The position numbers were made by a program, and so were the translations under genes. DNA of 64,000 nucleotides from Cryobacterium levicorallinum. Lineage in GTDB: Bacteria; Actinomycetota; Actinomycetes; Actinomycetales; Microbacteriaceae. Below the pieces are notes generated by a model. The model was not told where the DNA came from. It made no database searches and was given only the letters and a program-made list of their open reading frames with translations. How positions within the stretch are numbered: the stretch's first letter is position 1; each line of letters starts with the position of its first letter. The stretch covers positions 62,001 to 126,000 of the forward strand of contig NZ_SOFE01000014.1 in NCBI RefSeq assembly GCF_004402405.1, read 5' to 3'. Of this stretch, positions 2,063 through 31,303 are shown piece after piece.

Positions 2063-3562
2063 CTAGTGGTTCTGGGGGAAGCCCAGGTTGATTCCTCCAT
2101 GGCTCGGGTCGAGCCAACGGCTCGTGACCGCCTTCTCTCTCGTGAAGAAGTTGACGCCGGCGGGGCCGTAGGCCTTCGCGTCGCCGAACAGCGAGTTCTT
2201 CCAGCCGCCGAAGGAGTGGTACGCCACCGGAACCGGAATCGGTACGTTGATGCCGACCATGCCGACCTGCACCTCGTTCTGGAACCGACGAGCGGCCCCG
2301 CCGTCGTTGGTGAAGATCGCGGTGCCGTTGCCGTACTGGCTCGCGTTGATGAGGTCGAGGCCCTCCTGGTAGCTGGCGACGCGCACGATCGACAGCACCG
2401 GTCCGAAGATTTCGTCGAGGTACACGGCGGAGTCCACGCTGACCTTGTCGAACAGGGTCGGGCCGAGCCAGAAGCCGTCGGCGTCTCCATCAACCTCGAT
2501 GTCACGACCGTCGATGACGACGTCGGCACCGTCCGCCGTGGCGATGTCAATGTAGCCGGCGACCTTGTCGCGGTGCACCTTGGTGATCAGCGGGCCCATG
2601 TCGCAGCCGCGCGTGCCGTCACCGACCGTGAGGCCCTTGACGCGCTCGGCGATCTTCGCGATGAGCTCGTCGGCGACGGGCTCGACGGCCACGATGACGC
2701 TGATGGCCATGCAGCGCTCACCGGCGGATCCGAACCCGGCGTTGACGCCGGCATCCGCTGCCAGGTCGAGGTCGGCATCGGGCAGCACGAGCATGTGGTT
2801 CTTGGCGCCACCGAGGGACTGCACGCGCTTGCCGTGCTTGGCCGCGGTCTCATAGATGTAGCGGGCGATCGGCGTGGAGCCGACGAACGAGATCGCCTGC
2901 ACGTCGGGGTGCACGAGCAGCGCGTCGACGGCTTCCTTGTCGCCGTGCACCACGTTGAGCACACCGGCGGGCAGGCCGGCCTCGGTGAACAGCTCGGCGA
3001 GCCAGTTCGACGCTGACGGGTCCTTTTCGCTCGGCTTGAGCACGACGGTGTTGCCGGCCGCGATGGCGATCGGGAAGTACCAGAGCGGCACCATCGCCGG
3101 AAAGTTGAACGGGCTGATGATACCGACCACGCCGAGCGGCTGGCGCAGCGTGTAGACGTCGACGCCGGTCGAGACGTTCTCGGAGTACTCGCCCTTGGAG
3201 AGGTGCGGCATGCCGAGCGCGAATTCTACGACCTCGAGGCCGCGAATGATCTCACCGAGCGCATCGGAGGTGACCTTGCCGTGTTCGGCCGTGAGAATTT
3301 CGGCCAGGTCGCCCTTGCGCGCGTTGAGCAGTTCGCGGAAATTGAACATGATGGTCTGGCGGCGAGCCTGGCTCATGTCGCGCCAGGCCGGGTAGGCGGC
3401 CTGGGCGACCGCGACGGCAGCGTCGAGATCGGCCGTGCTCGCGAGCAATACGTTCTTGGCGACTTTGCCGGTGGCCGGGTTGTAAACCGGCGCGGTGCGG
3501 GTGGAGGTGCCGGCGGCAGCTGCGCCGTCGATGTAGTGCTGAATGGTGGGGGTGTCGGTCAT
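2063..3562 (-). CDS. mmsA: CoA-acylating methylmalonate/malonate-semialdehyde dehydrogenase
   Basis: NAD- and CoA-dependent aldehyde dehydrogenase that converts malonate semialdehyde (from beta-alanine) to acetyl-CoA, or methylmalonate semialdehyde to propionyl-CoA. The product has 499 residues. The aldehyde dehydrogenase fold is shown by the PFNFP motif near residue 151 and the nucleophile Cys284 in GSAGERCMA, the CoA-acylating MMSDH form. The ATG is preceded by GAAGGACG, a clear ribosome binding site. It is the last gene of a five-gene minus-strand operon and follows the aminotransferase after 29 bases, which assigns it to the last step of the uracil to acetyl-CoA route. Confidence 0.93.
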   Translation of the reverse strand: MTDTPTIQHYIDGAAAAGTSTRTAPVYNPATGKVAKNVLLASTADLDAAVAVAQAAYPAWRDMSQARRQTIMFNFRELLNARKGDLAEILTAEHGKVTSDALGEIIRGLEVVEFALGMPHLSKGEYSENVSTGVDVYTLRQPLGVVGIISPFNFPAMVPLWYFPIAIAAGNTVVLKPSEKDPSASNWLAELFTEAGLPAGVLNVVHGDKEAVDALLVHPDVQAISFVGSTPIARYIYETAAKHGKRVQSLGGAKNHMLVLPDADLDLAADAGVNAGFGSAGERCMAISVIVAVEPVADELIAKIAERVKGLTVGDGTRGCDMGPLITKVHRDKVAGYIDIATADGADVVIDGRDIEVDGDADGFWLGPTLFDKVSVDSAVYLDEIFGPVLSIVRVASYQEGLDLINASQYGNGTAIFTNDGGAARRFQNEVQVGMVGINVPIPVPVAYHSFGGWKNSLFGDAKAYGPAGVNFFTREKAVTSRWLDPSHGGINLGFPQNH

Positions 3563-3591
3563 GGTGAAACGTCCTTCAGGGTTGACTGCGG

Positions 3592-4947
3592 TTAGGAAAG
3601 CAGGTCGAGGCTGAGCACCTCGTCGTAGATGGCGAGCGCCTCGGCAACTTCGACGTCGGTCACGACGCACGGCGGAACGACGTGGATGCGGTTCTCCATG
3701 AGGAAAGGCAGCAGGCCGCGCCCGAGCAGCTCGGCCTTGACGCGGGCCATGACGGCGCCGCTCACCGGCTCGCGAGTTGCCGGGTCGGCGACGAGTTCGA
3801 GCGCCCAGAACACGCCGACCCCGCGCACCTCGCCGATAATCGGGTGCTTGACCTGCAGGGCTTTCAGCCCAGGCTCGAGCACGTCCCGCCCGATGCGGGC
3901 CGCGTTCTCCACGATGCCCTCGTCGGCCATCGCATCCAGCGCACCGACGATCGACGCCATGGCGAGCGGATGCCCGCTGTAGGTGAGTCCGCCGGGAAAG
4001 ACCGTCTCGTTGAAGGTTGCCGCGATGGCATCGGAGATGATCACGCCTCCGGTCGGTACATAGCCGGAGTTGACGCCCTTGGCGAAGGTGATCAGGTCGG
4101 GCACGACGTCATAGGCCTGAAAAGCGAACCAGTTGCCCGTGCGCCCGAAGCCGCACATGACCTCGTCGAGGATCAGCATGATGCCGTACTTGTCGCAGAG
4201 CGCGCGTACCCCGGGCAGGTAGCCGACCGGCGGCATCATGATTCCGGCGGTGCCGGGAATCGACTCGAGCAGAATAGCGGCAACCGAGGCCACACCCTCA
4301 CCCTGGATGACACGTTCGAGGTGGTGCAGCGCGCGGGCGCATTCCTCCTCTTCGCTGCTCGCCCAGAATTCGCTGCGGTAGAGGAACGGCCCGAAGAAGT
4401 GCACGTGGCCGCGCGCGTACTCGTTGGGAATGCGGCGCCAGTCGCCGGTGGCGACCACGGCCGCCCCGGTGTTGCCGTGATACGACTTATAAAGGGAGAG
4501 CACCTTGTCGCGGCCGGTGTGCAGGCGGGCCATGCGCATGGCGTTTTCATTCGCATCCGCTCCCCCGTTGGTGAAGAAGACCTTGTTGAACCCGGCGGGG
4601 GCGCGATCGGTGATGCGCTGGGCTGCTTCGCCGCGGGCCAGGTTCGCCGTCGACGGCGCAATGGTGGTCAGCAGAGCGGCCTGCTCGGTGATGGCTTTCA
4701 GTACCGACGGATGCTGGTGGCCGATATTCACGTTCACCAACTGACTCGAAAAGTCAAGATACCTGCGACCATCGTGGTCCCAGACGCGACAGCCCAGCCC
4801 GCCAGCGATGACGAGCGGCTTCAGCGCCGCCTGCGCCGACCAGGAATGGAAGACGTGCGCCCGGTCGAGTTCGCTCGTGCGCGCATTGAGGCTCGGCGCC
4901 TCGCCGGTGGCTGCGGGAGGGACGGTGTGTGTGCTGGTGTCAGTCAC
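3592..4947 (-). CDS. Class III aminotransferase, probable beta-alanine transaminase
   Basis: PLP-dependent omega-aminotransferase of 451 residues, a typical class III length. Visible features are the LILDEVMCGFGRTG cofactor segment and the Schiff-base lysine in the following LITFAKGVNSGY segment, with the conserved GLTYSGHPLA motif after it. By context, between hydA/LLM genes and mmsA, its amino donor is most likely beta-alanine with formation of malonate semialdehyde. The family also uses putrescine, GABA or adenosyl substrates, so the substrate is inferred. Start is GTG with AGAAAG upstream. It belongs to the five-gene pyrimidine degradation operon. Confidence 0.88.
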   Translation of the reverse strand: MTDTSTHTVPPAATGEAPSLNARTSELDRAHVFHSWSAQAALKPLVIAGGLGCRVWDHDGRRYLDFSSQLVNVNIGHQHPSVLKAITEQAALLTTIAPSTANLARGEAAQRITDRAPAGFNKVFFTNGGADANENAMRMARLHTGRDKVLSLYKSYHGNTGAAVVATGDWRRIPNEYARGHVHFFGPFLYRSEFWASSEEEECARALHHLERVIQGEGVASVAAILLESIPGTAGIMMPPVGYLPGVRALCDKYGIMLILDEVMCGFGRTGNWFAFQAYDVVPDLITFAKGVNSGYVPTGGVIISDAIAATFNETVFPGGLTYSGHPLAMASIVGALDAMADEGIVENAARIGRDVLEPGLKALQVKHPIIGEVRGVGVFWALELVADPATREPVSGAVMARVKAELLGRGLLPFLMENRIHVVPPCVVTDVEVAEALAIYDEVLSLDLLS

Positions 4948-4992
4948 GTATATCGCTGGCTTTCTGGGTCGGTGATGGTGGAGATGAAAATG

Positions 4993-6009
4993 CTATTTTG
5001 TGGCCATGATGGAATCGGTCATGGCCGGAATCACGGTTTCGCCGTAGACGCGCATCGTTTCTTCCTTGTTGTCGTGCTGCAGATAGCTGGCGAACTGGTC
5101 GACGCCGAGGTCTCTGAGTGCCTCGAGCTTCTCGATGTGGTCTTTCGCGGTGCCGAGCAGGCAGAATCGGTCGACGATCTCGTCGGGCACGAACGCGGCG
5201 TGCTCGTTGCCCGCCTTGCCGTGCTGGTTGTAGTCGTAGCCCTCACGGTTTTTGATGTAGTCGGTGAGGGCCGCGGGAACGATGGAATCGGTGCCGTACT
5301 TGGCCACGATGTCGGCCACGTGGTTGCCGACCATTCCGCCGAACCAGCGGCACTGGTTGCGCATGTGTTCCCAGTCCGAACCGACATAGGCGGGGGCGGC
5401 GACGCAGAATTTGATCGCCATCGGGTCGCGCCCGGCGTTGGAGGCTGCGGTGCGCACGCTCTCGATCATCCACTTGGCGACGTCGAGGTCGGCCATCTGC
5501 AGAATGAAGCCGTCGCCGACCTCGCCGGTGAGTTTGAGCGCGAGCGGACCGTAGGCGGCGACCCAGACCTCGAGGCTCGATCCGCGGCTCCACGGAAACT
5601 GCACCGTGGCCCCGTTGTATTCGACCGGGCGGGAGTTGGCAAGCTCCCGAATGACATGGATCGACTCGCGCAGGGTCTTCAGCGTGGTCGGCGCGCCATT
5701 CGTGGTGCGCACGGCCGAGTCGCCGCGCCCGATGCCGCAGATGGTGCGGTTGCCGTACATCTCGTTGAGAGTTGCATAAGTGGATGCCGTCACCGTCCAG
5801 TCGCGGGTCGCCGGGTTGGTGACCATGGGGCCGACGATGATCTTGCTGGTCTCGGCCAGGATACGGCTGTAGATCACATAGGGTTCCTGCCAGAGCAGAT
5901 GCGAGTCGAAGGTCCAGACGTGACTGAATCCGTGGGCCTCGGCTAGTTTGGCCAGTTGCACGGTGCGCGCCGACGGCGGGTTGGTCTGCAGTACTGCTCC
6001 GAAATCCAT
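4993..6009 (-). CDS. Luciferase-like (LLM) F420-type oxidoreductase in the pyrimidine degradation operon
   Basis: A 338-residue protein of the bacterial luciferase-like superfamily, resembling the uncharacterised group named in TIGR03842 (CPS_4043 family) that I recall as occurring beside dihydropyrimidinase genes. It opens with MDFGAVLQTNPP and carries the barrel motifs WTFDSHLLWQEP, GPMVTNPATRDW and GIGRGDSA expected for F420 or flavin binding. The ribosome binding site GGGGGGAAGAC precedes the ATG. It lies 10 bases after hydA, and no classical dihydropyrimidine dehydrogenase is in the operon. The proposal that it reduces uracil or thymine (or oxidises the dihydro form) is inference from position. 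It might instead act on another pyrimidine. Confidence 0.85.
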   Translation of the reverse strand: MDFGAVLQTNPPSARTVQLAKLAEAHGFSHVWTFDSHLLWQEPYVIYSRILAETSKIIVGPMVTNPATRDWTVTASTYATLNEMYGNRTICGIGRGDSAVRTTNGAPTTLKTLRESIHVIRELANSRPVEYNGATVQFPWSRGSSLEVWVAAYGPLALKLTGEVGDGFILQMADLDVAKWMIESVRTAASNAGRDPMAIKFCVAAPAYVGSDWEHMRNQCRWFGGMVGNHVADIVAKYGTDSIVPAALTDYIKNREGYDYNQHGKAGNEHAAFVPDEIVDRFCLLGTAKDHIEKLEALRDLGVDQFASYLQHDNKEETMRVYGETVIPAMTDSIMATK

Positions 6010-6019
6010 GTCTTCCCCC

Positions 6020-7438
6020 CTAAATCAGATACTGGCTCAGGCCGCGCTTGATATACCGGCCGTCACCCTTGGTGCCGAGATAGGCGAAGCCGTCGACGAC
6101 GACCTTGCCGCGGGAGATGACGGTGTCGACGTGGCCGTCGATCTCGTAGCCCTCCCAGGCGGAGTAGTCCATGTTCATGTGGTGAGTCTTATCGACACCA
6201 ATCGAGGTGTGCCCGTTCGGGTCGTAGATGACCACATCGCCGTCGGCGCCCGGCTGAATCACGCCCTTCTGGCCGTACATGCCGAACATGCGCGCCGGGG
6301 TGGTCGAGCAGACCTCGACCCAGCGTTCGAGCGAGATTTTGCCGTCGACCACGCCCTGGTAGAGCAGGTCCATGCGGTGTTCGACCGACCCGATGCCGTT
6401 GGGAATTTTAGAGAAGTCGGTCAGGCCCATCTCCTTCTGACCCTTCATGCAGAACGGGCAGTGGTCGGTGGAGACCATCTGGATGTCGTTCGTGGCGAGG
6501 CTCTGCCACATGTGGTGCTGGTGGCCCTCGGCCTTGGCGCGCAGCGGCGTCGAGCACACCCATTTCGCGCCCTCAAACCCGGGAGCACCGAGATTGTCCT
6601 CGAGCGAGAGGTACAGGTATTGCGGGCAGGTCTCGCCGAAGACATTCTGGCCGTTGTCCCTGGCCTGAGCGATCTGGTCCACGGACTGCTTGGCAGACAC
6701 GTGAACTATATAGAGAGGAGCACCGGTGAGGTTGGCGAGCATGATCGCCCGGTGCGTGGCTTCTTCTTCGGCCTGCCAGGGCCGGGTGAGGCCGTGGTAC
6801 AGCGGGCTGATATTGCCGGCGGCGACGGCCTGCTGTACGAGCAGGTCGATAACGCTGCCGTTCTCGGCGTGCATCATGATCATGCTGCCGTTGGTGGCCG
6901 CGCGCTGCATGGCCTTGACGATCTGGCCGTCGTCGCTGAGAAAGACACCCTTGTAGGCCATGAACAGCTTGAAACTCGAGACGCCCTCGGCGACGAGTTC
7001 GTCCATGGCGGTCAGTGAGCTGTCCTGCACGTCACTGAGAATCTGATGAAAGCCGTAGTCGATGGCGCACTGGCCGGCAGCCTTCTGCTGCCAGGCGGCG
7101 TAGCGCTCGAGCACGTTTTCGCCGGCGTACTGCACGACGAAGTCGACGATGCTCGTGGTGCCGCCCCAGGCGGCGGCGCGGGTTCCGGTTTCGAAGGTGT
7201 CGCTGGCCTGGGTGCCGCCAAACGGCATCTCCATGTGGGTGTGGGCGTCGATGCCGCCGGGAATGACGTACTTGCCGCCGGCGTCGATGACGCGGTCGAC
7301 ATTGCCCGCCACATCGAAGCCGAGCAGGTTCGAGCCGGGCGCGAGCACGGCAGCGATTTTCTCCCCGTCGATCAGCACATCGGCGAGTCCTCGGCCCGTG
7401 GCATTGACCACGGTGCCGTTCTTGATCAAAGTCTTCAT
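6020..7438 (-). CDS. hydA: Dihydropyrimidinase / D-hydantoinase
   Basis: Amidohydrolase that opens dihydrouracil or dihydrothymine to the N-carbamoyl-beta-amino acid. The 472-residue length is typical. Metal ligands are visible: His66 and His68 in DAHTHMEMP, the carbamylated lysine Lys157 in SSFKLFMAYKG, His190 in MMHAENG, His246 in YIVHVSAK and the aspartate in VSTDHCPFC. The ATG follows AGAGGATGCC. A 96-base gap containing a hairpin separates it from the upstream beta-ureidopropionase gene; the LLM gene follows after 10 bases. The operon context favours a dihydropyrimidinase rather than an unspecific hydantoinase role. Confidence 0.94.
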   Translation of the reverse strand: MKTLIKNGTVVNATGRGLADVLIDGEKIAAVLAPGSNLLGFDVAGNVDRVIDAGGKYVIPGGIDAHTHMEMPFGGTQASDTFETGTRAAAWGGTTSIVDFVVQYAGENVLERYAAWQQKAAGQCAIDYGFHQILSDVQDSSLTAMDELVAEGVSSFKLFMAYKGVFLSDDGQIVKAMQRAATNGSMIMMHAENGSVIDLLVQQAVAAGNISPLYHGLTRPWQAEEEATHRAIMLANLTGAPLYIVHVSAKQSVDQIAQARDNGQNVFGETCPQYLYLSLEDNLGAPGFEGAKWVCSTPLRAKAEGHQHHMWQSLATNDIQMVSTDHCPFCMKGQKEMGLTDFSKIPNGIGSVEHRMDLLYQGVVDGKISLERWVEVCSTTPARMFGMYGQKGVIQPGADGDVVIYDPNGHTSIGVDKTHHMNMDYSAWEGYEIDGHVDTVISRGKVVVDGFAYLGTKGDGRYIKRGLSQYLI

Positions 7439-7470
7439 GGCATCCTCTTCGCTGAAAAGTGTCAGGGATA

Positions 7471-7507
7471 GCGGATCCTGCCGACCGGGTCGGTCGGCAG
7501 CCTCCGC
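7471..7507 (-). promoter_or_regulatory. Intra-operon hairpin between beta-ureidopropionase and hydA
   Basis: CTGCCGACC (7478-7486) pairs with GGTCGGCAG (7492-7500) around a 5-base loop, and GCGGA (7471-7475) can extend the stem with TCCGC (7503-7507) across a small internal loop. No U-tract follows, so it looks more like an mRNA stability or processing element than a full terminator. The role is inferred. Confidence 0.5.
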
Positions 7508-7534
7508 AGTGCTGATTTAACTGCGCCGTGCGCT

Positions 7535-8410
7535 TTAAGGGGCGACGAGGGGCGCGTACGAGTCGGGGCGACGGTCGCGGTAGAACTGCCAGTCGCGGCG
7601 CACCTCGCGAATGACGCCGAGGTCGAGGTCACGCACGACGATCTCCTCGGTGTCGGTCGAGGCCCGCTCGCCCACGTAGTTGCCCTTGGGATCAACGAAG
7701 TAGGAGCTGCCGTAAAACGTCACGGCCTCGTCGCCAAACTCTGCCTCTTCGTTGCCGATGCGGTTGTTCGCGCCGACGTAGTACTGGTTGGCGACCGCGG
7801 CGGCTGGCTGCTCGAGCTCCCACAGCCGGTTGGACAGCCCGGGCTTGGTCGCCGAGGGATTGAACACGATTTCCGCGCCGTTCAGGCCGAGCGCCCGCCA
7901 GCCCTCCGGGAAGTGGCGGTCGTAGCAAATATAGACGCCGATCTTGCCGTACTTGGTGTCGAACACCGGGTAGTCGGTGTTGCCGGGGCGAAAGTAGAAC
8001 TTTTCCCAGAACTGGGGCAGGTGCGGAATGTGGTGCTTGCGGTACTTGCCGAGATAGGTTCCGTCGGCATCGATGACCGCGGCGGTGTTGTAGAGCACGC
8101 CGGGCTGTTCTTCTTCGTACATCGGAACGACGATGACCATGTTGTACTCGCTCGCAAGCTTTTGAAACCGTTCGACGATGGGGCCGGGAACGGGCTGCGC
8201 GTAGTCGTAGTACTTGGCGTCCTGCACGATGCCGAAGTAGGGGCCGTGAAAGAGTTCCTGAAAGCAGATCACCTGAACGCCCTGGGCGGCCGCGGTGCGC
8301 ACGAATCCCTCGTGCTTCTGAATCATGGATTCTTCATCACCGGTCCAGGTGGCCTGAGTGATCGCCGTTCGAACGATGTTTCTGGTGTCGGAGGTGGTGC
8401 CGTTGCTCAT
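7535..8410 (-). CDS. Beta-ureidopropionase (nitrilase superfamily amidohydrolase)
   Basis: Hydrolyses N-carbamoyl-beta-alanine to beta-alanine, CO2 and ammonia. The Glu-Lys-Cys nitrilase triad is visible at Glu52 (FQELFHG), Lys125 (GKYRKHHIP) and Cys162 (VYICYDRHFPEG). The chosen ATG gives 291 residues and has GGAAGGCAC about 7 bases upstream; an ATG ten codons earlier is possible but lacks such a site. It is the first gene of the minus-strand operon and is divergent from the MocR regulator. Its place directly before hydA supports the pyrimidine role over other nitrilase-fold amidases. Confidence 0.92.
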   Translation of the reverse strand: MSNGTTSDTRNIVRTAITQATWTGDEESMIQKHEGFVRTAAAQGVQVICFQELFHGPYFGIVQDAKYYDYAQPVPGPIVERFQKLASEYNMVIVVPMYEEEQPGVLYNTAAVIDADGTYLGKYRKHHIPHLPQFWEKFYFRPGNTDYPVFDTKYGKIGVYICYDRHFPEGWRALGLNGAEIVFNPSATKPGLSNRLWELEQPAAAVANQYYVGANNRIGNEEAEFGDEAVTFYGSSYFVDPKGNYVGERASTDTEEIVVRDLDLGVIREVRRDWQFYRDRRPDSYAPLVAP

Positions 8411-8561
8411 GCTGTGCCTTCCACTTGCTTCGTTAGTCAATGACCGTAACGAACCGCGCTGTTCGTATTGTTATTATTTGACGTAAACATTTCAAATGTG
8501 TTTCTCTGTGTATCGCACGCATTAATCATCCTGTCGGCCAACGCACCCAGGGGCAAGGGCA
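8411..8561. promoter_or_regulatory. Divergent promoter region with a palindromic candidate operator
   Basis: This 151-base AT-richer region separates the pyrimidine degradation operon from the MocR gene and must hold both promoters. It contains the 13-base palindrome ACATTTCAAATGT at 8487-8499, close to TTGACGTAAA, which could be a -35 element. MocR proteins usually bind in such shared intergenic regions, so this is the best candidate operator. No binding data can be read from sequence. Confidence 0.5.
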
Positions 8562-9944
8562 ATGCAGAACTTTATCGACGAAATTGAGCAGCGCACCCCC
8601 GCGGGGATCGCCGCGGCCATCGGGCGGCTGATCGCCTCCGGTCGCCTCGCACCGGGCGACCGCCTGCCCACCGTGCGCCTGCTGGCCGGCGAGCTCGGCG
8701 TGAGCCCCGCGACCGTCAGCCACGCTTGGCAGGCGCTCTCCGCGGTCGGCCTGATCGTGTCGCGTGGTCGCGGCGGCACCTTCGTTCAGGATGCCGCGCC
8801 CAGGTGGTTGCCGGCCCGCAGCCAGTCCATGATCGGCGCGGTCGGTCCGGCCCGCCTCGACCTCTCCCACGGCACGCCAGACCCGCGGTTGTTGCCGGCG
8901 CTGGGGCCGGCGCTCTCCCGGGTAGCGCAGCGCGCGGAAACGCCGAGCTATCAGGATCTGCCCATTATTCCGGAGCTGCTCGAGGTACTGCGGACTTCGT
9001 GGCCGTACCCGGTGGAGACGATCACCATCGTCGACGGTGCCCTCGACGCCATCTCGCGCAGCCTCGATGCGGTCGCTCGCTTCGGCGACCGGGTGATCGT
9101 GGAGAACCCGTCGTTCCCACCGTTCTTCGACCTGCTCGACCAGCTCGGGCTGGAGCGGCTGCCGGTGGCCGTCGACGAGCACGGCATCATTCCGGCCGAC
9201 TTCGCCGAAGCCCTCAAACTCGGTCCGGCCGTCGTGCTCCTGCAGCCGCGCGCGCACAATCCCACCGGCGCGTCGATGACCGTGCAGCGGGCCGAGGAAC
9301 TCGCCCACCTGTTGCGCACAACGGCGGCCAGCGCCGACACCATCGTGATCGAAGACGACCACTCCGCCGAGATCAGCATCGCCCCCGATGTGAGTCTCGG
9401 CGTCTGGCTGCCCGAACGAACCCTGCACGTGCGCAGCTTTTCGAAGTCGCACGGCCCCGACCTCCGCATGGCCGCCCTCGGCGGTTCGGCCGCTTTGATC
9501 GACCCGATCGTGTCCCGCAGGATGCTCGGCCCGGGGTGGACCAGCCGCATGCTGCAGACAATTTTGCACGACCTGCTCACCAACGGCGAGAGCATGGCGC
9601 AGATCAGCGAGGCCCGGCGCATCTACTTCGCCCGGCAGCGTGCCCTCGCCGATGCCCTGGGCGAGTTCGGCCTCGACGTGGTGCAGGCCGACGGTATCAA
9701 CACCTGGCTGCCGGTGCAAAACGAACGGGACGCCATGGTGCGCCTGGCCGCCTCCGGCATTCGGGTGGCCGGCGGCTCGCCGTTTCTCGCAACCCCGTAC
9801 CTTTCCAGCACCGGCGGTCCCGCGTTCATTCGCGTGACCGCCGGTGCCCTGCCCGACGATATTCGGCCGGTGGCCGAGGCCCTGGCCGCAGCGGCGCATC
9901 CGCCTGATTCCGCGCTGCACGAGGTCGGGGCGCGCTGGGCGTAG
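8562..9944 (+). CDS. MocR-type regulator (GntR HTH fused to aminotransferase domain)
   Basis: A 460-residue MocR/GabR/PdxR-type regulator. Residues 1-75 form a GntR winged helix (LAGELGVSPATVSHAWQALS), followed by a linker and a class I aminotransferase fold that uses PLP as a sensor. The Schiff-base lysine is in VRSFSKSHGPDLR near residue 290, and the NPTG motif occurs in PRAHNPTGAS. It is divergent from the beta-ureidopropionase to mmsA operon, which contains an aminotransferase. Control of that operon in response to beta-alanine or a related amine is likely by analogy with GabR, but inferred. AAGGGC precedes the ATG. Confidence 0.9.
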   Translation: MQNFIDEIEQRTPAGIAAAIGRLIASGRLAPGDRLPTVRLLAGELGVSPATVSHAWQALSAVGLIVSRGRGGTFVQDAAPRWLPARSQSMIGAVGPARLDLSHGTPDPRLLPALGPALSRVAQRAETPSYQDLPIIPELLEVLRTSWPYPVETITIVDGALDAISRSLDAVARFGDRVIVENPSFPPFFDLLDQLGLERLPVAVDEHGIIPADFAEALKLGPAVVLLQPRAHNPTGASMTVQRAEELAHLLRTTAASADTIVIEDDHSAEISIAPDVSLGVWLPERTLHVRSFSKSHGPDLRMAALGGSAALIDPIVSRRMLGPGWTSRMLQTILHDLLTNGESMAQISEARRIYFARQRALADALGEFGLDVVQADGINTWLPVQNERDAMVRLAASGIRVAGGSPFLATPYLSSTGGPAFIRVTAGALPDDIRPVAEALAAAAHPPDSALHEVGARWA

Positions 9945-9966: not shown

Positions 9967-10971
9967 TCAGCCCAGCTGACGCAGCCGGGGGGCCAGGTCG
10001 CGCTCGAACAGGTCGAGGAAGCGCTTCTGGTCATGGCCGGGGGCATGGAAGACCAGGTGGTCGAGGCCCGCGTCGAGGTAGGGCTTGATCAAGGCGACGG
10101 CCTCGTCGGGGTCGGACGCCACGATCCAGCGCTTGGCGACCTGTTCGATCGGCAGGGCGTCGGCAGCGGCCTCCATCTCGAGCGGGTCTTGGATGGAGTG
10201 CTTCTGTTCGGGGGTGAGGGACAGTGGCGCCCAGAACCTGGTGTTCTCGAGCGCGGTGTCCCGGTCGGTGTCGTAGGAGATCTTGATCTCGATCATGCGA
10301 TCGATGTCGTCCTGCGGGCGCCCGACCTTCTCGAGGCCCTCAGCCACGGCCGGCAGCAGCTTGTCGGTGTAGAGCTCCATGCCCTTGCCCGAGGTGCAGA
10401 TGAAGCCGTCACCCGCCCGGCCGGCGTAACGGGCCACGACGGGGCCGCCGGCCGCGATGTAGACCGGCACCGGGGCATCCGGAACGTCGTACAGGGTGGC
10501 ACCGACCGCGCTGTAGTACTCACCGTCGAAGTCGGTTCGTTCGCCGGTCCAGAGCTGGCGCATGAGGTCGACGGCCTCGCGCAGGCGGGCGAAGCGTTCC
10601 TTGAACTCGGGCCACTCACCCCGGTAACCGGTGGCGATCTCGTTGAGGGCTTCGCCGGTTCCGACGCCGAGCATGATGCGCCCGGGGTACAGGCAGCCCA
10701 TGGTGGCGAAGGCCTGGGCGATCACGGCCGGGTTGTAGCGAAAGGTGGGGGTCATCACCGACGTGCCGATCTGCACCCGCTTCGTGCGCTCGCCGACCGC
10801 GGCCATCCAGGCCATGGCGTACGGCGCGTGCCCGCCCTCGTGCCGCCAGGGCTGAAAGTGGTCGCTCACCGTCACGCTGTCGAGCCCGTGTTCCTCGGCC
10901 ATGACACCGAGTTCGACCAATTCTCGCGGTGCGAACTGCTCCGCCGACGCCTTCAGCCCCAGCTTCAACAT
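9967..10971 (-). CDS. fgd: F420-dependent glucose-6-phosphate dehydrogenase
   Basis: Cytosolic enzyme that oxidises glucose-6-phosphate to the gluconolactone while reducing coenzyme F420, the main source of F420H2 in actinobacteria. The 334-residue product is collinear with mycobacterial Fgd1 in my memory of that sequence, including [48 protein letters not shown] and the C-terminal [18 protein letters not shown] precedes the ATG. It is divergent from the F420-precursor ABC transporter and convergent with the MocR gene, placing F420 reduction between the F420 supply genes and an operon with an F420-type oxidoreductase. Confidence 0.95.
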
Positions 10972-13939: not shown

Positions 13940-14955
13940 GCGGCGTCGGCATGACGAGCCTGAAGCGCGTGACCGTTCTGGCCGGCGGTGTCGGCGGTGC
14001 CCGTTTCACCCGCGGTGTGTTGGCGCAGCTCGCGGTGGAAGCTCCAGACGCCACCGTGACGGTGATTGTGAACACGGGCGACGACATGTGGCTGGACGGG
14101 CTGCGCATCTGCCCCGACCTTGACACGGTCATGTATACGCTCGGTGACGGTATCAACGAGGAGCAGGGCTGGGGCCGCCCCGACGAGACCCGGAGGACCT
14201 CCGCTGAGATCGCGGCTTACGGTCGCGGCTGGTCCTGGTTCACCCTCGGCGATCTCGATCTGGCCACCCACATCGTGCGCACCGATCTACTGCGCAGCGG
14301 TTCGACGCTCTCTGAAGCGACGGAATTTCTCTGCCGCCGCTGGCAGCCCGGGGTGCGGCTGCTGCCGATGAGTGATCAGCCCGTGGAAACCCACGTATGC
14401 CTCGCCGAGAATATAGATGAGCACTCCGTGGGCGACTATATCCACTTCGAAGAATGGTGGGTTCGCTACCGGGCGAAGGTGCCGATCACCGGGTTCGAGC
14501 AGCGGGGACTCGCCGACGCGGTCGCCGCGCCGGGGGTGCTCGAAGCCATCACCGAGGCCGACCTCGTCGTGCTGCCGCCGTCGAATCCGGTCGTGTCGGT
14601 CGGCACGATCCTGGCCGTTCCGGGCATACGTGATGCGCTGCGGTCGACCGCGGCCCGCGTGGTCGGCGTCTCTCCGATTGTCGGCGGCGCGGCGGTGCGC
14701 GGAATGGCCGACGCCTGCCTCCGCACGATCGGGGTCGAGACCAGTGCACTCGCGGTCGCGCTGCACTACGGTGCCCGCAGCCGGGGCGGCATCCTCGACG
14801 GCTGGCTCATCGACGAATCGGATGCCGTGGCCCTGCCCGCTCTCGCGGCCGCCGGCATCCGCTCGGCCGCTGTGCCACTGTGGATGACCGACCTGCCCGC
14901 CACGACCGCGATGGCGGCCGCCGCCCTGGCGCTGTGGCCCGGAGCCAGGAGCTAG
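13936..14955 (+). CDS. cofD: 2-phospho-L-lactate transferase (F420 biosynthesis)
   Basis: CofD/FbiA joins FO to an activated phospholactate or phosphoenolpyruvate guanylyl intermediate to make F420-0 or its dehydro form. The 339-residue product shows VLAGGVGGARF near the start, the NTGDDMWLDGLRICPDLDTVMYTL block typical of CofD and LPPSNPVVSVGTIL in the middle. It starts in an ATGA overlap with the ABC ATPase stop; a second ATG five codons later is an alternative. Its presence in the importer operon implies that FO, not only F420-0, must be available in the cell. It overlaps convergently with cofC by 4 bases. Confidence 0.93.
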   Translation: MSGVGMTSLKRVTVLAGGVGGARFTRGVLAQLAVEAPDATVTVIVNTGDDMWLDGLRICPDLDTVMYTLGDGINEEQGWGRPDETRRTSAEIAAYGRGWSWFTLGDLDLATHIVRTDLLRSGSTLSEATEFLCRRWQPGVRLLPMSDQPVETHVCLAENIDEHSVGDYIHFEEWWVRYRAKVPITGFEQRGLADAVAAPGVLEAITEADLVVLPPSNPVVSVGTILAVPGIRDALRSTAARVVGVSPIVGGAAVRGMADACLRTIGVETSALAVALHYGARSRGGILDGWLIDESDAVALPALAAAGIRSAAVPLWMTDLPATTAMAAAALALWPGARS

Positions 14956-15581
14956 ACCAGTTCGCTCGTGTGCGGCCCGAGCCCCAGCGCCCGGGCGGTG
15001 TCGAGGTCGGCTGCGGTGTCGACGTCGCGTCGCAGCGACGAGCTCAGCGGCAAGTCCAGCACGACGTGCCCGTCGCCCTCGTGCGCGGCGCGGGAGCCGA
15101 GACCGAACCGCGGAGTGAACCTGTAGCCGGCCTGCGCGAGCAGCGTCGTTGTTCCCACGCCCTCCGCATCGGCCACCATCGAGAGCGGGTGCGTGGCCGC
15201 GAGCGCGAACGCCGTTTCTACATCGGCCACGTGCAGGGCCGGCAGATCTCCGGTCACAACGGCCAGATTCGCGTCGGGGCACGCGAACCGGGCCGCCTCG
15301 GCACCCTGCTCGATCGCGGCGTTCAATCGGTCCTGCCCCGCGTCCGGGCCCGGCACCTCCGGCACGATGACGGCGCCGAGTGCGGCGAGAAGCACGCCGA
15401 GCCGTGCACTCGCGGTCACCACGAACACGCGCTCCACAGCGGATGCCGCCACCAGCGCCGCTACCGTGTCCAACGCGAACGCATCGGCGAGGCCCGCCCG
15501 CCCGGCTCCGGCCCCGAGGCGGCTCTTCGCCCCGGCGGTTCCCTTCACCGGGACGACCACCACCCACCGAGTCTGATCCAC
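14952..15581 (-). CDS. cofC: Phospholactate/phosphoenolpyruvate guanylyltransferase (F420 biosynthesis)
   Basis: CofC/FbiD activates 2-phospho-L-lactate or PEP with GTP for CofD. From the GTG at 15581 the product is 209 residues, the usual length, beginning VDQTRWVVVVPVKG. Nucleotidyltransferase features include PVKGTAGAKSRLG, VVTGDLPAL and the FGLGSRAAH segment. The frame is open upstream but those residues do not match the family. TAGCGT ends 7 bases before the GTG, suggesting a leaderless mRNA, similar to pyrE. It overlaps cofD convergently. Confidence 0.88.
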   Translation of the reverse strand: MDQTRWVVVVPVKGTAGAKSRLGAGAGRAGLADAFALDTVAALVAASAVERVFVVTASARLGVLLAALGAVIVPEVPGPDAGQDRLNAAIEQGAEAARFACPDANLAVVTGDLPALHVADVETAFALAATHPLSMVADAEGVGTTTLLAQAGYRFTPRFGLGSRAAHEGDGHVVLDLPLSSSLRRDVDTAADLDTARALGLGPHTSELV

Positions 15582-15694
15582 GGTAAATACGCTATCAGCG
15601 CTCCGCCGGCAAACCCGCGCAACCCGGCAAGCGGTAGCCTCAGGGGTCGAGTAGCCAACATCCGTACGTTCGAATGAACGGCCCAGGAGGTCCC

Positions 15695-16054
15695 ATGTCA
15701 CAGTCACTCACCGCACAGGCTCGCGCGCTTCCCATGGCGATCGTCACCTATCTGGAGCGCAGCGCGAGCGCCAAGCCCACCTCCGCTCAAGCGACCTTTG
15801 TCGAAAACGCTGTCGTCGTCGACGACGACGGCAAGACGTACACCGGCGAGCCGGCCATCACGGCCTGGCTGGCCGGCAGCGCCGCCGAGTTCGAATACAC
15901 GACCACCCTCCTGCGCACCGAGAAGGACGAGGCGGCAACGACCGTCATCAACCGCATCGAGGGCAACTTTCCCGGCCGCAGCGTCGACCTCAGCTACCGC
16001 TTCGAGCTCGCCGCCGAGACCGGCCTGATCCAGAACCTCACGATCTCGATCTAG
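15695..16054 (+). CDS. SnoaL-like / NTF2-fold small protein
   Basis: A 119-residue single-domain protein that looks like the SnoaL/NTF2 alpha+beta barrel: an N-terminal helix, [26 protein letters not shown], then alternating strands ending in [16 protein letters not shown] precedes the ATG by a good distance. Such proteins include isomerases, hydrolases and accessory proteins, so no reaction can be assigned. It sits between cofC and cofE on the other strand and overlaps cofE convergently by 4 bases, so a link to F420 is only positional. Confidence 0.72.
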
Positions 16055-16887
16055 CTTTTCTCGGCTGCTGCAGCCAACCCGGCGGCGAACCCCTCGCGAT
16101 ACCCTTCGGCGCGGGCCTCGGTGGTACCGAGCCTAAACATGTCGGTGTCGCTCGGGCGCTGTAACGCCCGGGCGCCGACGGCATCGAGGTCGCCGACCAG
16201 TCGTCCGAGTCCGCGCAGCACGGCGACCGGGTTGCAGCTGGTCTTGCCCTTGACCAGATCGGCGGCTCCGGCGATCTCGTCGGCGACCGCCGCGACGGTG
16301 ACGTCGAGGCGGCGACCCGAGACATCCGTTGTGCCGCGCAGGTCGTCGAGTACCACAAGCCCCGCCGCACCGATGGCGATGTCGGTCTGGCCCTCGCGCC
16401 ACGGGCGCCCGGCAGTATCGGTGATCAGCACGCCGAGCCGCAGGCCGGTGCGCTCGCGAAGGGCTGTGCAGAGCGCGCGAGCGGAGGCATCCGGATCCAC
16501 CGGCAGCAGCAGCACGACGCCCGCGGGCGCGTTGCTGGTGTCGACGCCGGCCGCCGCCATCACGAGTCCCTGCCGGTTCTCGACGATGCGGGTGACTCCA
16601 CCCGGGTAGGCGCGTGAGGCCACGATCCGCACGGTCTCTTCGGTGATCGCCTGTTCGCGGTCGGCCGCTGGCACAGCCCGCCCCTCGGCCTTCGAAACGA
16701 TCTTGCTGGTCACCGCCACAATATCGCCGTCAATCAGGCGGGACCGAGCGGCCTCCGCGATTAGGGCGGCGAGGTCGTCACCGGCCGTGATCTCACCGAA
16801 CCCACCGAGGGTGAACACCTTGAGGCCGAACAGTTCCATTGCCCCCACTTCCGCCGCGGCCGCGTCGGGCCGGGCGTCGTGCGGCAT
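16051..16887 (-). CDS. cofE: Coenzyme F420-0:L-glutamate ligase
   Basis: CofE adds gamma-linked glutamates to F420-0 with GTP to give F420-1, F420-2 and longer tails. The 278-residue product contains [18 protein letters not shown] near residue 55 and [20 protein letters not shown] in the middle, both CofE hallmarks, followed by a [17 protein letters not shown] segment. It lacks the FMN reductase-like C-terminal domain of mycobacterial FbiB, so only the ligase function is encoded. The ATG overlaps the stop of the upstream Fgd-like gene (TGATG). An ATG 16 codons later is an alternative start. Confidence 0.92.
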
Positions 16888-17888
16888 CAGCGCACCAGCT
16901 TCGGCAGAACGGATGCGCCGAAGACGTCGATCCACTGCTTCTGGTTGCGGCCGACGTTGTGCAGGTAGATGCGATCGAAGCCGAGGTCGACGAATTTCTG
17001 GATGTATTTGCGGTGCTCGTCGGGGTCGGCCGAGATGACCATGCGGCCCTCGAAGTCCTCCGGACGCACCATTTTGGCCAGCTGCTCGAACTCGAACGGC
17101 GATCGAATATCGCTCTTCGGAAACTTCATGCCGCCGTTCGGCCACTCGTGCAGGGCATTGGTCATGGCCTCTTCGTCGGTTTCGGCCCAGCTCATGTGTA
17201 GCTGCAACACCTTGGGCATCGTCGACGGGTCTTTTCCGGCCTCGCGGGCGCCGCCGTCGAATTTTGCGAACAGCATCGCGATCTTCTCCAGCGGGGCGCC
17301 GACCGTGATCAGGCCGTCCGCCAGCCGACCGGCGCGTTTGGCCGTGACCGGGCCGGCCGTGGCTACCAGAATCTCCGGGGCAACGTCCGGCATGGTCCAC
17401 AGCCGGGTGGATTCAAGCTTGAAGAATTGCCCGGAGTGCTTGACGTCCTTGTCGGCCAGGGACCCGGCGAACAGCTTGGAGATGATCTCGATGGCCTCGA
17501 ACATGCGATTGATGCGCTCCGGGGCTTCGGGCCAGTAGCCGCCCACAATGTGCTCGTTCAGCGCTTCACCGCTGCCGAGTCCCAGCCAATGCCGCCCCGG
17601 GTGCATCGAGGCCAGCGTCGCGGAAGCCTGCGCGACCATGGCCGGGTGCCAGCGAAAGGTGGGCGCCGTCACGCCGGGACCGAAGTCGCCGGTGGTGCGC
17701 TCGGCGATCGAGGCGAGCACGCTCCAGACGAAGCTCGACTGACCCTGCGCTGGAACCCAGGGCTGAAAGTGGTCGGCCGCCATCACGCCGGTGAAACCGT
17801 GCTGCTCCGCGTAGGCCGACAGTGCGACCGCCTCGGCCGGTGCAAACTGCTCCAGCATGGCCGCGTAGCCAATCCGCAACTCCGTCAA
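16887..17888 (-). CDS. Fgd-like F420-dependent oxidoreductase upstream of cofE
   Basis: A luciferase-like superfamily enzyme of the G6PDH-related F420 group (TIGR03557-like). It shows [63 protein letters not shown] and [16 protein letters not shown]. It is clearly diverged from fgd, so it probably uses another substrate. The TTG at 17888 gives 333 residues and has GGAAAGG about 5 bases upstream; an in-frame ATG at 17906 is the alternative. It is translationally coupled to cofE. The substrate is unknown. Confidence 0.85.
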
Positions 17889-18017
17889 AATACCCTTTCC
17901 GCCCATAACCGTGTATCTATGTCCATTCAATCGCAACACGGTCGGGGCTGCGTTCGATACCGCGGAAGGCGGCATCCGCTTGGCCGGGCGGCACGCTGGC
18001 CCTTATAGGCTGGAGTC

Positions 18018-30864: not shown

Positions 30865-31191
30865 ATGCGATTCGGACTGTTGGTACCCCAGGGCTGGCGA
30901 CACGATCTGGTCGGAATCGAACCCGCCGAGCAGTGGGCAACCATGAGCGGCCTGGCCACCCACGCCGATGCCGGTGCCTGGGAATCCATTTGGGTCTAAG
31001 ACCACTTTCATACCGTGCCGGTGCCAAGTACGCAGGCCATGCACGAGGCGTGGTCGCTGATCTCCGCGTTCGCTGCCACCACGACACGAGTGCACCTCGG
31101 CCAGATGTGCACCTGCATGAGCTACCGCAACCCCGGTTACCTGGCCAAAGTGGCCACGACCGCCGATATCATCTCGGGTGGACGCATCGAG
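30865..31191 (+). pseudogene. Luciferase-like F420/flavin oxidoreductase pseudogene
   Basis: The frame MRFGLLVPQGWRHDLVGIEP ... AGAWESIWV is interrupted by TAA at 30997-30999, after which DHFHTVPVPST and CMSYRNPGYLAKVATTADIISGGRIE continue in the same frame. The family has YDHFHTVP at this point, so a Tyr codon has become a stop. After GGRIE the expected GAGWYEHEW motif is lost and recognisable similarity ends, so roughly the last two thirds of the gene are missing. It resembles the TIGR03560-like group of F420-type enzymes. It is not likely to be functional. Confidence 0.8.
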
Positions 31192-31303
31192 CCGATCGTA
31201 GCCCTGGGCCATACCAATTCCATGCCGCTTTCGGCCATGCCGTCGCGGGCATCCTGGCTGGGAAAAATCGGCCTGCTGCGCGCTCTTGACAAGGTTGCGC
31301 CGA

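Follow-up and report, generated by a model that had tools for sequence, protein, structure and literature searches.

A luciferase-like oxidoreductase as the probable F420H2-dependent first enzyme of reductive pyrimidine degradation in Cryobacterium levicorallinum

We analyzed a stretch of 64,000 nt from the genome of Cryobacterium levicorallinum (contig NZ_SOFE01000014.1, positions 62,001 to 126,000; hereafter the window) that carries, on its − strand at positions 2063 to 8440, an operon with the gene order CN-hydrolase, hydA, an oxidoreductase of the luciferase-like monooxygenase (LLM) superfamily, aminotransferase and mmsA. Its gene content and wider distribution make it very probable that this operon serves reductive pyrimidine degradation and that the LLM protein is an F420H2-dependent uracil/thymine reductase, which replaces dihydropyrimidine dehydrogenase (DPD) without being homologous to it. 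The first step of the pathway is the only one without a gene in the operon, and the LLM gene, a member of NCBIfam family TIGR03842, is the sole redox gene of the operon without an assignment. The locus is best regarded, with good confidence, as a variant of a known pathway with a non-homologous first enzyme.

An earlier reading of the same DNA, made from the sequence alone (the sequence-only reading), had described these five genes in this order, and the model searches bear this out. The LLM gene (4993 to 6009) matches TIGR03842 with 590.5 bits against a cut-off of 295, over positions 1 to 329 of the 329 in the profile. Its ATG is preceded by GGGGGGAAG, and a spacing of 10 bases separates it from hydA (6020 to 7438), which encodes a dihydropyrimidinase/D-hydantoinase (TIGR02033, 555.8 bits against 393; PDB dihydropyrimidinase 3sfw, E = 7e-144). 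The class III aminotransferase (3592 to 4947; NF004718, 737 bits against 472; PF00202) is likely a β-alanine/3-aminoisobutyrate transaminase, and mmsA (2063 to 3562; TIGR01722, 680 bits against 448) encodes a CoA-acylating (methyl)malonate-semialdehyde dehydrogenase. The mmsA frame is open to 3670, but the internal ATG at 3562 is the better start because the MmsA profile begins at residue 43 of the long frame. The CN-hydrolase (7535 to 8410 from an ATG, or to 8440 from a TTG; PF00795; PDB 5h8i, 2vhh and 8pt4) is likely a β-ureidopropionase. Against the N-carbamoylputrescine amidase model it reaches 262 bits, short of the cut-off of 410. Among solved structures it is closest to N-carbamoylputrescine amidohydrolases (206 and 202 bits), followed by 2vhh (190) and two named β-ureidopropionases (175 and 174); its substrate is therefore not fixed by sequence. 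The earlier claim of a full gene set from dihydrouracil to acetyl-CoA holds for hydA, the aminotransferase and MmsA, all of which exceed their cut-offs, and is weaker at the hydrolase.

The usual DPD is missing from the entire genome (3.75 Mb in 36 contigs, listed as 100% complete), and not just from the window, where the sequence-only reading had noted its absence and had proposed a wider search for pydA/preT-preA. At the thresholds used, the PreA model has no match in the genome (E <= 1e-60), and the single Fer4_20 match is the glutamate synthase small subunit GltD (TIGR01317, 666 bits against 448). The one strong DHO_dh match is the quinone-dependent dihydroorotate dehydrogenase PyrD (NF003648, 487 bits against 433), and a second, sub-threshold match is FabK-like. 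Given these identities and at these thresholds, we rejected a canonical DPD hidden elsewhere in the genome. An oxygenolytic pathway of the RutA type was rejected as well, given that the RutA model (TIGR03612) has no match in the genome at E <= 1e-100.

The association of the LLM gene with pyrimidine genes extends well beyond this strain. We compared the best 80 of 561 related loci by similarity (80–96% identity), which are nearly all from Microbacteriaceae, include Cryobacterium strains as the closest (93–96% protein identity) and in some cases end early at contig ends. The order hydrolase-hydA-LLM on one strand is present in all 80, accompanied by the aminotransferase in 73, a divergent MocR gene in 55 and MmsA in 38, and PreA, PreT and RutA matches above 100 bits are absent from these loci. 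Among 19 LLM loci drawn from 19 genomes of 13 other families, hydA is present within the retrieved stretch in 16, and every locus carries at least one other pathway gene.

A survey of TIGR03842 against hydA and F420 genes, as the sequence-only reading had suggested, was made in 296 Actinomycetota genomes. All were searched with six models: TIGR03842 (curated cut-off), hydA (E <= 1e-100), PreA (E <= 1e-60), cofD (E <= 1e-10), Fgd (E <= 1e-120) and RutA. TIGR03842 exceeds its cut-off in 62 genomes and hydA occurs in 89, with both present in 61 (Fisher p = 4e-40, which ignores kinship). In these 61 genomes the two genes lie within 500 bases of each other in 22, within 10 kb in 49 and within 20 kb in 52, and are on different contigs in seven; random placement in 3-Mb genomes would give about 0.4 of 61 pairs within 10 kb. 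Because the survey p-values ignore kinship, the count by families is the fairer figure: 13 of the 14 families holding the LLM have at least one LLM-hydA pair within 10 kb. The F420 assembly gene cofD was found in 170 genomes, comprising 59 of the 62 with the LLM versus 111 of the 234 others (p = 3e-13). As a control, Fgd, another F420-dependent LLM protein, occurs in 21 genomes, eight of which have hydA (p = 0.46), and thus exhibits no link. PreA was detected in two genomes, G181 (a match with an in-frame stop) and G196, neither of which has TIGR03842 over cut-off. In G196, preT-preA and hydA share a strand, with preT-preA 1.3 kb upstream, which makes this genome a natural counter-case to the LLM loci. 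RutA is over its cut-off in none of the 296 genomes and reaches E <= 1e-100 in one. Separately, TIGR03842 matches split in two were seen at G208:C1:121370-122355 and G206:C1:2193491-2194476, and reflect frameshifts or assembly errors.

The remaining 28 of the 89 genomes have hydA without the LLM, and the surroundings of hydA were viewed in 16 of them, G196 included. Apart from G196, no preA, preT or LLM gene above 50 bits is present in the viewed surroundings, and a CN-hydrolase lies near hydA in just three genomes (G266, with 68% identity to that of the window, and G290 and G202, with 31–32%). For these reasons, most of the viewed LLM-less hydA genes look like other hydantoinases. Pfam scans of ten open reading frames around hydA in G266, G264 and G119 revealed no DPD-like or LLM protein; the G264 locus encodes an amine oxidase together with a member of the haem oxidative demethylase family, and three frames of the G266 locus matched no family. 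Several of the frames chosen in the Streptomyces locus L083, and one in L134, had no family match and probably are not the true frames.

The strongest evidence comes from outside the Actinomycetota. A tblastn search of plasmid records (E <= 1e-40) gave 13 matches, ten from Leisingera and one each from Paracoccus, Streptomyces and Rhodococcus, the last of which (34%) was discounted as too distant. Four of the 13 records (two without annotation) were read together with a second Leisingera species, and eight other Leisingera records were left aside. On plasmids of L. caerulea and L. aquaemixtae, the LLM gene is the last of an F420 operon, cofG-cofH-cofD-cofC-cofE-npdG-LLM, and a divergent pyrimidine operon reads pntA-pntB-aminotransferase-M20 hydrolase-hydA-NCS1 nucleobase symporter. 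On these two Leisingera records (NZ_CP081074.1, 155760 to 171579, and NZ_CP081061.1), the LLM is tied in one locus both to F420 supply and to pyrimidine breakdown, and the arrangement suggests that electrons flow from NADPH through F420H2 to the pyrimidine. On a plasmid of Paracoccus alcaliphilus, cofGHDCE-npdG is followed by the LLM gene, with all of these genes in a row on one strand, and then by an NMT1-type ABC transporter. From the Leisingera and Paracoccus cof-npdG-LLM loci and the cofD count of 59 in 62, we predict that the LLM protein binds and uses F420. Across the Actinomycetota, it is reasonably likely that reductive pyrimidine catabolism usually begins with TIGR03842, which occurs in 62 of 296 genomes versus two with canonical PreA, that this enzyme is F420H2-dependent, free of iron and flavin and unrelated to DPD, and that at least some Roseobacter-group bacteria carry a whole F420 biosynthesis operon on a plasmid mainly to serve it.

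We propose that the LLM protein works as a reductase because npdG and pntAB lie beside its gene in Leisingera and Fgd occurs in the family of the window. The same neighbours bear on the opposite direction of catalysis, in which the enzyme would convert dihydrouracil to uracil and reduce F420 for salvage or redox supply. Some F420-dependent LLM enzymes, such as Fgd, are indeed dehydrogenases, and sequence cannot settle reversibility. However, the HydA of the operon consumes dihydropyrimidines, npdG, pntAB and fgd indicate a supply of F420H2, and Mer, the nearest group, is placed in a reductase clade in the part of PMC6279831 consulted, making a reverse role extremely improbable.

The transporters at some of these loci raise the question of substrate. 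In the L003 locus, the sole one whose insert was scanned, the genes between LLM and aminotransferase encode an ABC transporter whose binding protein is of the NMT1 type, and 52 of the 73 related loci with the aminotransferase have a gap of 3.0–4.5 kb, the size of this insert, at the same place. The NMT1/THI5-type binding protein family includes thiamine-precursor transporters. Such proteins in the L003 operon and the Paracoccus locus would suit an LLM that uses F420 on a compound related to uracil (thymine alone, a 5- or N-substituted or thiamine-type pyrimidine, or a hydantoin precursor), with the operon degrading that compound. So would the additional resemblance of HydA and the CN-hydrolase to families of hydantoinases and other N-carbamoyl amidases. 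We consider this unlikely, as MmsA and the aminotransferase suit the products of uracil and thymine, the Leisingera cluster includes a nucleobase symporter, and in the LLM-less G196 it is preT-preA that stands beside hydA.

The LLM protein itself is a TIM barrel of 338 residues with PF00296 as its sole domain, and lacks DHO_dh, Fer4_20 and iron-sulfur domains. In NCBIfam (June 2026), TIGR03842 has the status of a hypothetical equivalog with no assigned function; the model takes its name from a CPS_ locus tag, a prefix of Colwellia (Gammaproteobacteria). By both sequence and fold the nearest solved relatives are the F420-dependent Mer proteins, with luciferases and monooxygenases of the flavin mononucleotide (FMN) type ranking lower; the AlphaFold model (pLDDT 81.8, pTM 0.84) has Mer structures as its top eight Foldseek matches (TMq 0.77–0.82). 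Filing the protein as Mer was nevertheless rejected, since it misses both Mer cut-offs (NF002619, 132.9 bits against 276; TIGR03555, 127.7 against 348.7) and a catalytic residue of Mer is replaced throughout (see below).

The fold is shared with RutA, an LLM enzyme that acts on uracil, and the protein might by that token use FMN and oxygen to open the uracil ring. We judge this very improbable on several grounds. Of the NCBIfam families, 24 match the LLM protein at E <= 0.001; they include the Mer models (133 and 128 bits) but not that of RutA. The operon carries hydrolases for reduced rings in place of RutB-F partners or a flavin reductase. Finally, the reductase encoded in the LLM operon of Leisingera is an NADPH:F420 reductase, and cofD accompanies the LLM in all but three genomes.

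Residues of the F420 site are common to the LLM family and Mer. We aligned 132 rows (125 distinct sequences) of the LLM family with Mer of M. jannaschii and found Val63, Asp97 and Gln171 to be invariant in all 132. Val63 corresponds to Val62 of Mer, which forms the non-prolyl cis-peptide, and Asp97 to Asp96, which is modeled as touching the pyrimidine ring of the pterin (roles as given in the part of PMC11094777 consulted). Gln171 takes the position of a Mer carboxamide, residue 178, which is Gln178 in that paper and Asn by count in the deposited sequence; both are carboxamides, and no other use is made of the match. By this correspondence, a non-prolyl cis-peptide is predicted at Val63. In contrast, the catalytic Glu6 of Mer is replaced by Val, Thr or Cys in all 132 rows. 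A further set, conserved across at least 98% of the rows and absent from Mer, comprises Arg95, Ser98, Trp140, Tyr153, Trp222, His230, Tyr258-Asp259-Tyr260, His263 and Cys283. As a guess, some of these may bind the pyrimidine or protonate its C5; loops 36–40 and 96–102 are poorly predicted.

These features are consistent with the following mechanism. F420H2 would be made by Fgd from glucose-6-phosphate in the family of the window, or by the NADPH:F420 reductase NpdG elsewhere. Its deazaflavin would occupy the base of the TIM barrel, up against the cis-peptide residue Val63, and hand a hydride straight to uracil or thymine at C6 while an acid of the enzyme protonates C5 to give the 5,6-dihydropyrimidine. 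HydA would then open the dihydropyrimidine ring, and the CN-hydrolase would release β-alanine or 3-aminoisobutyrate. The aminotransferase would yield the semialdehyde, which MmsA would convert to acetyl-CoA or propionyl-CoA.

The window also encodes part of an F420 supply. An fgd gene (9967 to 10971, − strand; TIGR03554, 677.5 bits against 420) lies just past the divergent regulator, as the sequence-only reading had reported. Further along, and absent from the sequence-only reading, are the F420 assembly genes cofD/fbiA (13951 to 14955, + strand; TIGR01819, 349 bits against 257) and cofC/fbiD (14952 to 15707, − strand; TIGR03552, 125.5 bits against 105), and a cofE-type F420-0:glutamate ligase gene (16051 to 16887, − strand, ATG at 16887; TIGR01916, 233 bits against 181). 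The F420 biosynthesis set of this genome is incomplete, with cofC, cofD and cofE present and no CofH match. FbiA is encoded in the retrieved flanks of 47 of the 80 related LLM loci, and full-length FbiC in four, plus a fragment at the edge of L080.

Several observations weigh against an F420-dependent pyrimidine reductase. FO synthase (FbiC/CofH) was not found in this genome (E <= 0.001) or in that of G373, a member of the same genus, and a search of 120 genomes of the family at E <= 1e-30 left 95 with no FO synthase match. The fgd gene is linked to the LLM in only five of the 62 LLM genomes, all from the family of the window, and was dropped as a general partner. No cofD was found in three of the 62 (G115, G224 and G232; drafts, 90–96% complete), where a search for CofH gave two matches below cut-off in G232, a fragment in G115 and nothing convincing in G224. 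One LLM genome of the 62, G194, lacks hydA at E <= 1e-100, and the LLM-hydA distance is 13–50 kb in one family (f33), 12 kb in G031 and 3.4 Mb in G208. The Paracoccus plasmid carries no hydA, a result that covers the plasmid and not the chromosome. The draft genome G266 (91% complete; G266:C326:1-18000) has a hydrolase and a HydA 68% and 62% identical to those of the window but no LLM; neither LLM, PreA nor PreT was seen near hydA or over cut-off anywhere in the draft, nor was any other enzyme for the first step seen. Within the protein, the structural model is weak (pLDDT < 50) at the two loops named above, which include Asp97. FMN, moreover, is also bound by some F420-dependent LLM reductases, according to the part of PMC6279831 consulted.

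Because no FO synthase is detectable in this genome, F420 synthesis there would depend on FO from an outside source or from an unrecognized enzyme. Either FO is taken up, or an undiscovered FO synthase exists, or the LLM enzyme uses another deazaflavin or a flavin. The pattern points to scavenging of FO, or to an FO synthase of unknown type, in the family, at least in members that keep cofD; a literature search on fbiC and Microbacteriaceae found no account of the missing enzyme. The sequence-only reading had proposed F420-linked interconversion of uracil/thymine and their dihydro forms by the LLM protein, with fgd nearby as a pointer. The F420-dependent uracil/dihydrouracil step is favored by neighborhood, whole-genome and cross-phylum evidence, while the place of fgd as a general partner is lost and FO synthase is missing from this genome.

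The proposed reductase resembles PreTA/PydA, including the ferredoxin variant PydAc (PMC7332683, in the part consulted), in its proposed reaction and its association with hydA. It differs in that the two share no domain and in that its electrons are proposed to come from F420H2 and not from NAD(P)H or ferredoxin. It shares with Mer the fold, the Val of the cis-peptide pair, the equivalent of Asp96 and the carboxamide position, and is set apart by its scores below both Mer cut-offs, the replaced Glu6 and its own conserved residues. With RutA it has the superfamily and a tie to uracil in common (for the LLM, by proposal), whereas RutA uses FMN and oxygen chemistry, has other partner genes and is represented by a model that the LLM does not match. 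No report of an F420-dependent pyrimidine reductase was found in the open-access papers searched. The closest printed idea, in the part of PMC12507026 consulted, is a putative F420-dependent yanthine reductase of Chloroflexota uric-acid clusters, in which NADH and ferredoxin are also named and F420 is invoked for yanthine only. Like the LLM, it belongs to PF00296 and would take the place of a flavoenzyme (PydA-like or YgfK) in a pathway that reduces a heterocycle; it differs in pathway (ssnA uric-acid clusters), phylum and substrate.

If the assignment is correct, the first step of reductive uracil/thymine breakdown has a second, non-homologous enzyme and a third type of electron donor after NAD(P)H and ferredoxin. 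F420, a rare coenzyme, would take part in ordinary nitrogen nutrition, which is a plausible everyday function for it in many soil bacteria, and TIGR03842 could be named in many genomes. The human DPD is the enzyme that inactivates 5-fluorouracil, and its bacterial equivalents are of wider interest for this reason. A 2021 review (PMC8498797) left unanswered, in the part consulted, what purpose F420 has in the Proteobacteria and Chloroflexi that make it and for what reason mycobacterial genomes hold such large numbers of genes for LLM and other enzymes of the F420 type. It stated that no F420-dependent reductase or dehydrogenase had been experimentally examined in bacteria outside Actinobacteria, and that same part contains no word beginning with uracil or hydantoin. 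The Leisingera cluster offers one answer that can be tested directly.

Other features of the window were noted. The divergent MocR-type regulator (8562 to 9944, + strand; PF00392 and PF00155, a GntR-aminotransferase fusion) presumably controls the operon. Between the two lies a block (8468 to 8535) that stayed conserved when 15 related intergenic regions were aligned with the window and that is probably an operator or promoter. Just past mmsA lie pyrE, for orotate phosphoribosyltransferase (TIGR00336, 132 bits against 107), and a LysR regulator gene (51 to 764 and 1076 to 1990). A second F420-type LLM gene, of the Fgd group (16887 to 17975, − strand; TIGR03557, 283 bits against 210), adjoins the cofE-type gene, and a partial PF00296 match (positions 1 to 107) with one internal TAA at 30865 to 31209 (G000:C22:92865-93209) is possibly a decayed LLM gene. 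Outside the window, the LLM-hydA cluster L122 of genome G023 contains two CN-hydrolase copies, 64% and 70% identical to that of the window, which perhaps act on two carbamoyl substrates.

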